This document shows positions 13,939 to 37,265 of a stretch of DNA of 42,272 nucleotides, one piece after another. Below the pieces are notes generated by a model. It saw nothing but the letters and a program-made list of their open reading frames with translations, had not been told where the DNA came from and ran no database searches. The stretch is from a virus, in the IMG/VR virus record IMGVR_UViG_3300014820_000003, positions 1 through 42,272 of that record; one strand, given 5' to 3'. The first letter of the stretch is position 1; the number at the start of each line of letters is the position of its first letter. A program made the position numbers and the translations under genes.

Positions 13939-14517
13939 ATGATAGATAATTTTTTCCAACTAAAAGCATTGCTTAAATTTGAATCTGAAGATGATTTTTA
14001 TTTTTGTCAGATACTAAAGCGTAAGAAAGAGCATAAAGAACTTGGAAGTAATTCTTATGTTGTTAAAACTTATTTTATTAAGAGTGCAGAAGATTTAGAA
14101 TTTTACAAACCTGAAATGATTAATATTGCTGAGTTTCATAATGCAAGGGTTTATTTAAATCTGAATAAACGTAGCTTTGAGCGCACAGCATTTCACACAT
14201 TAAAGAAAATTACAGATCAAATCCTCAATAAGGACTATAAGAGCGCAAGAAAGGCCTATGCTTCAGTATGTGGAATGTATGCAGCAGATGAAGATAAAAC
14301 ATGGGTAGTAGATATTGATACCCCTAAAGGTAGACAAGCTAATGAAGTTCTTAAACTTATAGATAGTTTGCAACCTGTTGGTAATAAGCTTATTGCAATC
14401 GTAGATACTAAAAATGGTTTTCATATTATAACAAAGCCTTTCAATATACAGGAGTTTAGTAAACACTATGATTATAATGTGCATAAAAATAATCCAACGG
14501 CACTTTACATTCCTTAA
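13939..14517 (+). CDS. Possible archaeo-eukaryotic primase (AEP)-like protein
   Basis: A 192-residue protein whose C-terminal half carries TWVVDIDTP (Asp125, Asp127) and, 35 residues later, VDTKNGFHIITKP (His162). The order DxD, then a small-residue turn with His on a strand, resembles motifs I and II of the AEP/PrimPol fold, where the aspartates bind metal and the His binds the nucleotide. Motif III (a further acidic residue) is not obvious, and the chain is short. It may therefore be a minimal or inactive primase-like domain. A DnaG-like primase is also encoded at 36249. Confidence in the gene is high, in the function low. Confidence 0.5.
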   Translation: MIDNFFQLKALLKFESEDDFYFCQILKRKKEHKELGSNSYVVKTYFIKSAEDLEFYKPEMINIAEFHNARVYLNLNKRSFERTAFHTLKKITDQILNKDYKSARKAYASVCGMYAADEDKTWVVDIDTPKGRQANEVLKLIDSLQPVGNKLIAIVDTKNGFHIITKPFNIQEFSKHYDYNVHKNNPTALYIP

Positions 14518-14524
14518 AAATAAA

Positions 14525-14556
14525 TTTGGAAAATTAAAATAAAGGTTTTACCTTTG
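14525..14556 (+). promoter_or_regulatory. Bacteroidota-type promoter TTTG-N20-TACCTTTG
   Basis: TTTG at 14525-14528, a 20-base spacer, and a perfect TAnnTTTG at 14549-14556. The upstream AAATAAATTTGG block is shared with the promoter at 34524. The ATG of the nuclease gene (14561) is 4 bases after the -7 box, so the transcript is predicted to be leaderless. Confidence 0.85.
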
Positions 14557-14560
14557 AAAA

Positions 14561-15583
14561 ATGCAAGAAGAAAAATACGCAAACACATTAGCAATCAGCT
14601 CCACATCTGTCAAACAGTTTAAGACTATGCCTCCTATAGAATGGAAGAAGTTGTGGATTACTAAAGAAAAGGAGCAAAAGAGTAGCATTGCTTTAAATAA
14701 AGGCTCATTAACAGATGATTTATTATTTAATCCTGATGTAGTAGATGAGCGATATTTAGTAATGGAAGTTAAAAAGCCTTCAGACTCTATCTCTTATATA
14801 ATAGAAAATATATTTGCGCCTGATGAAAATATTTTTCTTGGAGATTTAAAAGATAAGGCGTTAGAATGTGCTAAAAGAGCGCCAATGCCTGATAATAAAA
14901 CAGGATATGGACAATCTTGGAATGAGGATACACTATTTGATAAAATTATATCAGCAGGCAGTGAGTATTATGAGTTTCTAAAGACTACTAATGGAAAGTG
15001 TGTAGTAGGTTCTTCTGAATACATGGCTGCTCTTGGAATGGCAGAGGCTATGAAAAAATCTAAAGAAGTTGAAGAATTTCTTAATCCTAAATTGAATAAA
15101 TTCCAATTCCAAATAATAACAGACGATGATTTTCCTGATAAACTTAAAGGTTGTTTAGATATTTTGCATATTAACGATAAGAAGAAGCAGATTAGAATAG
15201 TAGATTTTAAAACAGCAGATAATGCTTTTTATTTTATATCTAATATAGTAAAGTTTGGGTACTTAGAACAGATGTCATTCTATATCAAGTTGCTTAATAT
15301 TTGGCTTCAAGAAAATGGTAAAAAATATTTGAAATATGAAATACTGCCACCTATGAATATAGTTATAGATAGCAGATATAACACTCCATATTTCTACGAA
15401 TATAATTGGAAAGATATTCAAGCAGCGTGGAATGGATATTTTAAATACGGAAAAATGCAAAATGGTATTAAAGACACTATAAAAGAAATTCAGTGGCATA
15501 TCCTTAATGACAAATGGGACTATCCTATGGAGCATTACATATATGGAAAGATTAATTTAAGTTTAATAAATCACAATGAATAA
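14561..15583 (+). CDS. PD-(D/E)XK nuclease, RecB/exonuclease VIII-like
   Basis: A 340-residue protein with a clear PD-(D/E)XK core: KLKGCLDIL (Asp200), KKQIRIVDFKTAD (Asp215, Lys217), then FGYLEQMSFY containing the QxxxY motif (Gln237, Tyr241) typical of the RecB/AddAB/lambda-exonuclease branch. Glu/Asp and Lys bind two metals for hydrolysis. Phage members degrade one strand at DNA ends to make single-stranded tails for annealing or RecA. The window also encodes RecA, a Sak4-like ATPase and an SSB-like protein, which fit that pathway. It has its own promoter. The last 8 bases overlap the next gene if that gene starts at 15576. Confidence 0.85.
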   Translation: MQEEKYANTLAISSTSVKQFKTMPPIEWKKLWITKEKEQKSSIALNKGSLTDDLLFNPDVVDERYLVMEVKKPSDSISYIIENIFAPDENIFLGDLKDKALECAKRAPMPDNKTGYGQSWNEDTLFDKIISAGSEYYEFLKTTNGKCVVGSSEYMAALGMAEAMKKSKEVEEFLNPKLNKFQFQIITDDDFPDKLKGCLDILHINDKKKQIRIVDFKTADNAFYFISNIVKFGYLEQMSFYIKLLNIWLQENGKKYLKYEILPPMNIVIDSRYNTPYFYEYNWKDIQAAWNGYFKYGKMQNGIKDTIKEIQWHILNDKWDYPMEHYIYGKINLSLINHNE

Positions 15584-21337: not shown

Positions 21338-21429
21338 AATAAAACAACATGGAAAACTTATTATATAATTGAAAAGAGAAGAAATATTAGAATTACACAA
21401 TAAAAAACAAATTAAATTTTTAAATATAT

Positions 21430-21918
21430 ATGAATCAAAATTCAAAAAATACAACGAATCCCCTGAATAGTAACCCTAAAGTTATTATTTTACAGGGGAT
21501 TCCGTAACTATGTAGCGGAAAATCAACATGGATAAGGAAACATTGTCCTATGGATTCACAAGGATATAGGTATAAAATACATTCTTGTGATGTTATAAGA
21601 GAACAAATGTTCGGAAAGAAATACAAACACAATAATGCAGATGAATTAATAGTTTGGGAAACATTTTATACACTCATTAATAACTCTGTAATAGACACAG
21701 AAAGTTTCATTATAGATAATACTAATCTAAGACAGAAATATATTAATCAAATAATGTGCCGTCTAACAGACAACTATGAGATAGAAATTAAAAAGTTTTC
21801 TATTCCCCTATGGAAAGCCCAATTACGTAATTATCTAAGACGAATAAAAACAGGAAAATATATACCTAACAAAGTACTAAAAAACTTTTATACAAGATTT
21901 AAAAATTTAAACAATTAA
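21430..21918 (+). pseudogene. Polynucleotide kinase-like P-loop protein with in-frame TAA in the Walker A loop
   Basis: Read from ATG 21430, the product has a strand KVIILQGIP, then a TAA at 21505-21507, then Leu-Cys-SGKSTW and a full kinase remainder: SCDVIREQMFG, SFIIDNTNLRQKYI and IEIKKFSIPLW. This is the layout of T4 Pnkp-like 5' kinase domains, where the loop should read GxxxxGKST. Removing the 6 bases TAACTA gives GIPCSGKST, a perfect Walker A, in the same frame. The stop sits in the 11-base loop of a TTCCG/CGGAA hairpin. Either this is a fresh disruption, or recoding (readthrough or bypass) is used. The 122-residue product from ATG 21550 would lack the P-loop. Neighbours are the RNA ligase and a phosphoesterase. 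Confidence 0.65.
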
Positions 21919-27482: not shown

Positions 27483-27509
27483 AAAAGCCTGACTAACAAT
27501 CAGGCTTTT
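27483..27509. terminator. Bidirectional rho-independent terminator
   Basis: A 10-bp perfect stem AAAAGCCTGA / TCAGGCTTTT with a 7-base loop CTAACAA. The T-run serves the plus strand, and the A-run (A6 at 27481-27486) becomes a U-run on the minus strand. It lies between the converging genes ending at 27482 and 27534, so it should stop transcription from both sides. Confidence 0.9.
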
Positions 27510-34191: not shown

Positions 34192-34522
34192 AAAAATAGA
34201 ACTAATCAAACAAATAGTTAAGCACCACCCGGCTTTAGGCACAGATAAAGGATGGTCTACTTATACAGGGGGAATGGCAGATACAGGATACTGGTATTGG
34301 GATAAAATGATAGATGTTTCTGAATATGATTTACAAAAGTTTTTACTATTTTTAACAGAAACATATAAAAAAGTTGAAGAAGCTTATAGAGAAAGAGAAA
34401 GAATATTTGCTCTACCTAAAGAAGAAAGAGATGCTATTTATAAAAAAGAGCAAGAAGAACAAAGGAATTTATTAATAGAATATGGAGAAATAATGGAAAA
34501 AAGATTACTTTGGGGAAAATAA
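34184..34522 (+). CDS. Hypothetical protein, 112 aa
   Basis: An N-terminal part with KQIVKHHPALGTDKGWSTYT and GYWYWDKM, followed by a long charged helix (KKVEEAYRERERIFALPKEE and onward) that may be a coiled coil. The style recurs in Bacteroidota phages. Function unknown. It is the last gene before the promoter at 34524; its TAA is part of the AAATAAATTTGG block. Confidence 0.6.
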   Translation: MDEKIELIKQIVKHHPALGTDKGWSTYTGGMADTGYWYWDKMIDVSEYDLQKFLLFLTETYKKVEEAYRERERIFALPKEERDAIYKKEQEEQRNLLIEYGEIMEKRLLWGK

Positions 34523-34523
34523 A

Positions 34524-34555
34524 TTTGGAAAATCCAAATATTCTTTTTACCTTTA
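34524..34555 (+). promoter_or_regulatory. Bacteroidota-type promoter TTTG-N20-TACCTTTA
   Basis: TTTG at 34524-34527, exactly 20 bases, and TACCTTTA at 34548-34555 (last base A instead of G). The AAATAAATTTGGAAAAT block is nearly identical to the one at 14518-14534. The ATG of the Sak4-like gene is 24 bases downstream, so a short leader is expected. It drives the recombination/SSB/primase unit. Confidence 0.8.
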
Positions 34556-34579
34556 CAATAATTAAATAAAAACAAACCA

Positions 34580-35532: not shown

Positions 35533-36102
35533 ATGAATCAAGAAACTTTAGACTTCAGCTCAGTAGATGCCGCTGAAAGCAGCGCAGGTAATTATTTAAA
35601 ACCTGGAATTTACAGAGTGAAGCCAACATTAGTAGAGTTAGTAGAACGTGAAGGCGGGACTACTGCTATTAAAGTAACTTTTGAAGGAGTTACAGAACCT
35701 TATGAGGGTCAGATAGTAGAAGAAAAATTCTTCTTAAGTCAGAAAGCACTTCCTCGTTTGCAGTATTTTCATGAAAAGTACTTAGGCTTTAAATTAGAGA
35801 ATAAGGCTATTACCTATCAAAAACTTTCAGATTATTTGTCTCAGAAGTTTTTAACTAAGCCTAAAACAGTTCTTATTGCTGTGGGCGGAAGAGAGGGTAA
35901 TGATGGCAAGGTGTACGGTCAATTACCATTTACAGATTTTATATTAGACTCTGATAGTGATGTAGAAGAAGGTGCTTATGAAGAAGGTAGCGCACAGTAT
36001 AACAAATCTATTCGCAAGAATAGAAATCCTGCTACTATGTCTACTTCAGGAGTGTTAAATACTCCAACGACAGCTAAGTCGGATTTGCCATGGGAGGACT
36101 GA
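35533..36102 (+). CDS. Single-stranded DNA-binding-like protein
   Basis: A 189-residue protein with a beta-rich central domain (GIYRVKPTLVELVEREGG, TAIKVTFEGV, IVEEKFFLSQKALPRLQYFH) and a disordered, polar linker ending in KSDLPWED. A terminal acidic tip with hydrophobic residues is the hallmark of SSBs, where it recruits replication partners. Proteins of this design are annotated as SSB in crAss-like and related phages. Position between the Sak4-like ATPase and the primase fits. Its first residues (TLDFSSVD) nearly repeat those of the downstream primase (TLNFSSVE). Confidence 0.7.
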   Translation: MNQETLDFSSVDAAESSAGNYLKPGIYRVKPTLVELVEREGGTTAIKVTFEGVTEPYEGQIVEEKFFLSQKALPRLQYFHEKYLGFKLENKAITYQKLSDYLSQKFLTKPKTVLIAVGGREGNDGKVYGQLPFTDFILDSDSDVEEGAYEEGSAQYNKSIRKNRNPATMSTSGVLNTPTTAKSDLPWED

Positions 36103-36110
36103 TAATCAAG

Positions 36111-36123
36111 TAGTTATGAACTA
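36111..36123 (+). other. Small hairpin TAGTT-ATG-AACTA
   Basis: A 5-bp stem with a 3-base loop, located 8 bases after the SSB-like stop and just upstream of the large RNA fold. It may be part of that RNA or a chance structure. Confidence 0.3.
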
Positions 36124-36125
36124 AT

Positions 36126-36238
36126 AAATGACGGCGACCAAACATCAAAAAAACTGAAATGGGGTTATACTAACCTTCACGGTAAATAATAAAAAGTTCA
36201 ACGCAGTAGTGCGGAAGCGGGTGTCGTCGTCATTTTTT
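36126..36238 (+). ncRNA. Candidate structured RNA closed by a 13-bp stem
   Basis: This region between the SSB-like gene and the primase has no coding capacity. Its ends pair over 13 bp: AAATGACGGCGAC (36126-36138) with GTCGTCGTCATTT (36223-36235), one G-U pair and no mismatch. Inside are two hairpins. The first is ACTG-AAA-TGG-GGTTA / TAACC-T-TCA-CGGT (36153-36183, triloop TAC). The second is CGCA-GTAG-TGCG (36202-36213). An 18-base A-rich linker joins them. T6 follows at 36233-36238, and the ATG of the primase comes 10 bases later. The layout is a three-way junction with a terminator-like end. It could be a free phage ncRNA or a cis-acting control of the primase. I match it to no known class. 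Confidence 0.6.
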
Positions 36239-36248
36239 AAATTTTTAA

Positions 36249-37265
36249 ATGGAACAAACATTAAATTTTTCCAGTGTAGAATCCCCACATCTTGTAAACT
36301 CAGAGTGGGTTTTAAATAAAGTTGATCAAAATCAAATTTTTTATGCTTATTTTGGAGATTTTATTCCTTATAAGAAGTCATATAATTCTGTATTTAGAAA
36401 GGATAGATCTGCGAGTACGGGATTTTTCTTTGGTGATAGTGGAGAGTTAGTATATTATGATCTTGGTACAGGAGAAAATTTAAATTGTTTTGCTTTTGTA
36501 GCAAAAATGTATGGGATAAAATATGGAGAGGCTATAAGGAAAGTAGCATGTGATTTTGGACTTATTCAATGTGAAGGATTACATTTTGAAAAAAAAGAAA
36601 TAAACAACTCTATAAACTTTGAAAAAAAGAATAAAGAAGAAAGAGAGATTCAAATTATTCCTGCTGTGTGGAATTTAAAACATGCAAAATATTGGAGACA
36701 ATATGGAATAACTAAAGAGGAGTTAGAAAAAGAACATGTTTACGCAGTGGATAAATTATTCATAGATAAAAATCTAATAGTTAATAAGAATGATGTACTA
36801 AGATTTGCCTATGTAGTTTCTGTTAAGGGGAAGGGTTATATGAAGATTTACAGTCCATACGCAGATAAGTTCAAATGGATTAGCAATATAAATCTTAACA
36901 CGCCTTTTGGATGGGATACTCTAAATCTTGATTCTGAGACTGTTTACGTGACAAAAAGCTTAAAAGATATGATTGTACTCAAAAAGATTTTTCCGAGCGT
37001 TATAAGCACGCAAAATGAGTCTGAGGGAGCTTTAAACAGTGGACTTGTTAAGTTCCTGTGCAAAAACTTCAAAAAGAGAATAATTGTATTTGATAATGAT
37101 GCTGTAGGTGTAGAAAATTGTAAAAAATTTAACGAAAAAGGCTTTGGATATTTTAATATACCAAAAGATTATATATATGAAGGAATAAAAGATCCTTCTG
37201 ATTTTGTAGCAGCTTATGGAATTGAGAAATTAAAAAATTTATTTAAACAAAAAAACTTATTATGA
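36249..37265 (+). CDS. DnaG-like primase with degenerate zinc and TOPRIM motifs
   Basis: A 338-residue protein with the two-part layout of DnaG-like primases. The N-terminal part (residues 45-105) has [18 protein letters not shown] and [20 protein letters not shown], which aligns with the zinc-finger module (fold of P-H-D-K-T-P...F-GxGGD-F) but lacks its Cys/His ligands. The TOPRIM part has [10 protein letters not shown] (Lys236 where the catalytic Glu stands in DnaG; Asp240 kept) and [10 protein letters not shown] (Asp282, Asp284). It should synthesise RNA primers for the family A polymerase. The Glu-to-Lys change is either a lineage feature or loss of primer synthesis. It is preceded by the folded RNA at 36126-36238. 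Confidence 0.75.

Follow-up and report, generated by a model that had tools for sequence, protein, structure and literature searches.

What is encoded in the structured gap between the SSB-like gene and the primase gene of this virus: an RNA with a function of its own, a regulator of the primase, or the end of the upstream message? The window, i.e., the whole 42,272-base virus record analyzed here, harbors a replication module with genes for a DNA polymerase, a helicase, a ribonucleotide reductase, a UvsX-like recombinase, a Sak4-like ATPase, an SSB-like protein, a primase, MazG, and chaperonin-10. The gene upstream of the gap (35533–36102, plus strand) encodes a 189-aa protein with an acidic C-terminal tail ending in DLPWEDD; Pfam and PHROG searches with this protein gave no match, and the name SSB-like is based on its tail, position, and size. 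The gene downstream (36249–37265, plus strand) encodes a DNA primase of 338 aa which matches PHROG 12622 with an E-value of 2.5e-37. In tblastn searches, this primase found 127 phage records, all with less than 60% identity, many of which are crAss-like phages or phages of Bacteroides or Flavobacterium. Relatives of the window SSB detected by tblastn are located directly upstream of related primases in three loci (L261, L262, and L263, the last being the same contig as L159).

The gap itself spans 146 nt (36103–36248), from the stop of the upstream ORF at 36102 to the primase ATG at 36249. Direct reading bore out what the original prediction had claimed for it, namely a gene-free region whose ends pair over 13 bp with one G-U: the 5′ arm AAATGACGGCGAC (36126–36138) pairs with the 3′ arm GTCGTCGTCATTT (36223–36235), both read on the plus strand, without any mismatch and with the single G-U at 36134/36227. 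Both arms are also supported by a shuffle test and by folding, which predicts pair probabilities of 0.73–1.0 for the closing stem. Of 2000 shuffles of the gap that preserve dinucleotide composition, none reached the stacking energy of the stem (−23 kcal/mol), and the stem ranks first by this measure among all uninterrupted helices spanning at most 140 nt in the entire 42,272 bases. The fold of the complete element (36126–36235) has a z-score of −3.4, and that of the gap with a little flanking sequence a z-score of −2.1. A T-rich tail of the terminator type (T6, AAA, T5; 36233–36246, plus strand) is found at the 3′ side. The T6 described earlier as following the stem is indeed present at 36233–36238, but its first three Ts lie opposite AAA and belong to the stem itself.

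The loop enclosed by this stem comprises 84 nt (36139–36222, plus strand) and is only weakly folded, with a minimum free energy of −12.5 kcal/mol when folded alone (z −1.0); 32 of 200 shuffles fold equally well. Two inner hairpins, which had been taken as a sign of elaborate structure, are predicted by folding on the plus strand, i.e., a bulged one at 36152–36184 and a small one, CGCA GTAG TGCG, at 36202–36213, but their stability is within chance (z −1.2 for the former and z −1.6 for region 36190–36222 containing the latter). The closing stem is the exceptional part of the element, the evidence for a special structure sits in stem and tail, and the stability of the interior is not beyond the chance level.

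Searches with the Rfam 15 covariance models detected no family in the window at curated or relaxed thresholds, in agreement with the earlier remark that a match to a known class could not be made; the best weak matches (14–17 bits) were on the minus strand and far below the gathering cut-off. A blastn search of the region against phages gave no match, no close homolog of the window RNA was found in viral contigs or phage records, and primase and SSB used as single-protein queries in IMG/VR found no relative. An exact 15-mer of the stem occurs in 71 stretches of viral contigs, which we took as chance matches, the same downstream sequence being present in none of the stretches listed. ARAGORN detected no tRNA in the window. 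A tRNA-like origin of the element was rejected: the only call was on the minus strand at a lowered threshold with introns allowed, and no T-arm sequence was seen. In the literature on crAss-like-phage, long-loop, large-loop, and SSB–primase terminators, covered mostly at the level of abstracts, no such element was recognized.

We propose, with a probability of roughly 0.77, that the element is an intrinsic terminator at the 3′ end of the SSB-like gene which carries an enlarged loop of 84 nt. Like intrinsic (Rho-independent) terminators, it combines a stable, G/C-containing stem with a T-tract on the coding strand (5 Ts in 7 positions 3′ of the stem), it lies just 3′ of a stop codon, and hairpins at this gene end are conserved in relatives. 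Its unusual feature is the loop. By Term-seq, the median loop length of terminators is 4 nt, and TransTermHP accepts loops of 3–13 nt (PMC12207403). At 84 nt, the loop lies far outside this range, and we therefore class the element as a terminator variant and not as a canonical member. It further departs from the canonical form in the foot of the stem, where A/T pairs take in half of the T6, and in the AAA that interrupts the tail, both of which speak against a terminator. The element is absent from the output of a terminator scan tool with a loop limit of 8. Plain, short-loop terminator-like hairpins are found at gene ends elsewhere in the same phage, at 2292–2311 (GCCCTGTGAAAACAGGGC followed by T6) and at 27483–27509.

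Conservation of the SSB–primase junction was analyzed in loci collected with the Sak4 protein (80 IMG/VR loci) and with primase alignments (1, 80, 20, and 20 further loci, some contigs being repeated); two distant Sak4 loci from a scan of genome contigs were left unused. Not usable were 12 Sak4 loci which end before the primase and three loci without an upstream ORF (L199, L209, and L225). In most loci, the primase is preceded by an ORF of ∼180–230 aa whose tail is often acidic or DLPF-like; the name SSB-like is based here only on the location, the size, and the acidic tail. With the window SSB as tblastn query, matches were obtained in L159 as well as L261–L263, L273–L275, L277, and L278. A gap passed our fixed terminator test if it contained a helix with a score of at least 22, one defect being allowed, and at least 5 Ts in 7 positions at the 3′ foot. 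The first set of 157 gaps comprised 113 distinct sequences, from which 15 gaps below 30 nt and four others (longer than 230 nt or with an upstream ORF below 150 aa) were removed, leaving 94 gaps including the window. Of these 94 gaps of 30–230 nt, 78 pass the test, among them the window gap with a score of 33, compared to 49 of 1880 shuffles. Upon extension by nine new gaps, taken from 20 further primase loci, 86 of 102 relative gaps of this length range pass, these 102 being distinct sequences and not independent lineages. Controls from the same loci rarely do so, with 10/102 for the opposite strand and 9/154 for other same-strand junctions. Kept apart from the count were three loci with an inserted gene (L261, L271, and L275), five with gaps of 0–6 nt (L264, L265, L269, L270, and L272), and three repeats of counted gaps (L263, L266, and L277).

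Presence, strand, and position of terminator-type hairpins are directly visible in these relatives: on reading, their gaps contain plain hairpins whose loops are only a few bases long and which are followed by T-tracts. In L262, the nearest relative by primase (49% over residues 15–259; 33% for its SSB), the junction carries a canonical terminator, GAGCCCTG GAAA CAGGGCTTTTTT, and plain terminators are found at the junctions of L159 (primase 38%) and of Leptolyngbya phage Lbo-JY46 (TAAGGAGGG ... CCCTCCTTATTTT). The hairpins are not alignable base by base to the window stem, and the distance between stem end and primase ATG, 9 nt in the window as determined by the test, ranges from 1 to 121 nt in relatives. 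The suggestion that the structure goes far beyond a simple terminator is not upheld, given the terminator-type hairpins of the relatives and the chance-level stability of the inner hairpins.

Several relatives argue against a terminator. Sixteen of the 102 testable gaps fail, among them L251 and L253 despite their closing stems with large loops; 15 distinct gaps are shorter than 30 nt and offer no room for a terminator, e.g., in L160 and L161, which are among the closest loci by primase; and none of the four named gut crAss phages (L003–L006) passes. L078 passes only via a helix with a 117-nt loop which reaches into a second ORF, and was left uncounted. The gaps upstream of the primase in L003 (2727–2973), L004 (2784–2985), L005 (2637–2982), and L078 (5634–5850) contain T-arm-like sequences, e.g., GGTTCGAATCC. 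Neither ARAGORN with default settings nor Rfam reported a tRNA in these four gaps; with introns allowed, ARAGORN calls a tRNA-Asn in L078 whose intron would measure 26 nt. A link between the window and the L078 gap, based by eye on a 12-bp stem and the tRNA-like stretch, was discarded as too weak.

Could the element instead act on the gene downstream, as implied by the original description as a cis-regulator of the primase? A leader controlling primase translation would work, for example, by sequestering or exposing the ribosome-binding site or via a 9-codon upstream ORF starting at 36128. The element is indeed located directly upstream of the primase ATG, its 5′ arm overlaps the mini-ORF ATG ACG GCG ACC AAA CAT CAA AAA AAC TGA, and translation of this mini-ORF would open the stem. 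However, the primase ATG and the A/T-rich stretch preceding it lie outside the stem. Moreover, in the three loci where an extra gene separates the upstream ORF from the primase (L261, L271, and L275), the hairpin is found at most 45 nt from the upstream stop, and none that passes the test is present before the primase (3/3). The upstream ORF has an SSB match in L261 and L275; for that of L271 (about 298 aa), no SSB match was found. Because the junction hairpin is conserved in relatives and stays with the upstream gene in all three loci, we favor a 3′-end signal of the SSB gene, that is, an intrinsic terminator, and consider a primase leader very unlikely. Thus, what stands of the earlier interpretation is a real RNA-level structure without an Rfam match, and not its role as a primase regulator or as more than a terminator. 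The position within a replication module and a long perfect inverted repeat that could extrude as a cruciform would also suit an element acting at the DNA level, for example an origin of replication or a hairpin for primase or SSB loading. The T-tract is one-sided, though, with 86/102 gaps passing on the plus strand versus 10/102 on the minus strand, and because of this polarity RNA termination fits and a DNA hairpin does not, which makes a DNA-level element extremely improbable.

An alternative closer to termination is that the element ends the SSB message and has a second job, with the loop holding either a discrete small RNA or an RNA that binds a protein or a ligand, for which stem and T-tract serve as terminator and scaffold. 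Such a loop might be an sRNA, a decoy, a site of SSB autoregulation, or a riboswitch-like switch. This would account for an 84-nt loop that is otherwise unneeded, and at the corresponding junction large loops (38–156 nt) are found repeatedly in a lineage of marine phages, where ∼47 nt of loop sequence are near-identical in L176/L241, L251, and L253 despite differing stems, which suggests a selected RNA. On the other hand, the predicted fold of the window loop is no more stable than expected from shuffles, neither an Rfam family nor a model of the marine loop (R1) matches in the window, the plus strand between 36000 and 36130 contains no sigma-70-like or TANNTTTG match, and prefix folding gave no strong competing antiterminator fold. 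We therefore regard a second function of the loop as unlikely. A still more speculative version, to which we give little credence, is that the SSB terminator of this broad phage group tolerates exchange of its loop and that each lineage carries a functional RNA module of its own at this position, the 84-nt loop of the window being one of them. If so, every SSB message that ends at the terminator would release or display such a module.

As an intrinsic terminator, the element would act during transcription of the replication module. RNA polymerase would copy the 5′ arm, the 84-nt loop, and the 3′ arm in turn, and the 13-bp stem would close while the polymerase copies the T-tract, so that most transcripts stop there and SSB receives an mRNA end of its own. 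The terminator is probably leaky, and the fraction of transcripts reading through would continue into the primase, MazG, and chaperonin-10 genes, resulting in an excess of SSB over primase. The long loop might weaken or tune termination. In the macromolecular synthesis operon of Escherichia coli, too, a primase gene within a co-transcribed set of genes is directly preceded by a terminator, and this rpsU–dnaG terminator, T1, lowers primase output. T1 lies between rpsU and the primase gene dnaG (PMC7863352). It differs from the window element in that T1 is a plain 31-nt terminator and the upstream gene encodes a ribosomal protein, not SSB; the E. coli case is a bacterial operon, and we claim no homology with the window. 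By analogy, dosage control like that of the rpsU–dnaG terminator would be the simplest reading of the SSB–primase terminator. A broad group of environmental and crAss-related phages appears to place an intrinsic terminator often between SSB and primase, and a conserved regulatory habit would thereby explain a striking structured gap.

The loop size of the 86 passing relatives is at most 9 nt in 79 cases, and 38, 42, 47, 49, 81, 156, and 156 nt in the remaining seven (L163, L176, L218, L250, L252, L255, and L257). All seven belong to a single primase lineage, for which we use "marine" as a shorthand that is not derived from sample records; L251 and L253, which fail the score, were grouped with them by eye. 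These terminators share with the window element a closing stem and T-tract, a large loop (38–156 nt), and a position flanked by an SSB-sized gene and a related primase, but differ from it in that no loop sequence was seen in common with the window and their primases belong to a different branch. As judged from these sequences, the window is not alone in having a large loop, and kin of the window loop itself were not found. In overall shape, the window element is closest to the gaps of L250 (2290–2494) and L252 (1905–2109), which are 205 nt long and contain two long hairpins enclosed by a 15-bp stem.

In L176 (3895–3994; the same contig as L241), L251 (2384–2497), and L253 (2387–2500), ∼47 nt of the loop, GATAAC...CCTARAGGACGATTAAGTTCATTCCTARAGGACGAAACT, are nearly invariant and hold two copies of CCTARAGGACGA, whereas the closing stems differ. 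We consider this loop sequence a candidate for a new RNA motif. Model R1, built from these loops, matches only these loci; it gave no match in the window, and membership of the window loop in this motif was rejected. A match to Hammerhead type III obtained at a relaxed threshold in the L241 gap was likewise rejected, with 18.2 bits compared to a cut-off of 48.5 (E = 0.11) and with the Hammerhead core motif CUGANGA absent on reading. Comparison of L255 (2403–2500) and L241 (2401–2500) showed that their primases are 81% identical and the loops of their junction terminators are different; the L255 element (2419–2496) has a z-score of −6.2. The loop of the junction terminator thus seems replaceable. 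The large-loop exceptions, together with the conserved loop of the three marine phages, are a place to look for new phage RNAs, and could reveal how far a terminator loop can stretch before function fails.

Two further sites in the window attracted our attention. Downstream of an RNA ligase gene, a kinase-like frame (21430–21918, plus strand) reads MNQNSKNTTNPLNSNPKVIILQGIP*LCSGKSTW..., in which an in-frame TAA, the stop at 21505, falls inside an apparent Walker A motif. Immediately upstream of this stop is the end of a strong hairpin, GAATCCCCTG / CAGGGGATTC, and gap 21338–21549 folds with a z-score of −4.7. Possible explanations are recoding or bypass at this site, a broken gene, and an error in the assembly. 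In addition, two 62-nt stretches upstream of genes (14517–14578 and 34516–34577) are 73% identical to each other and are possible phage promoters; one of them contains TACCTTTG, which we take to be a −7 element of the Bacteroidota type.
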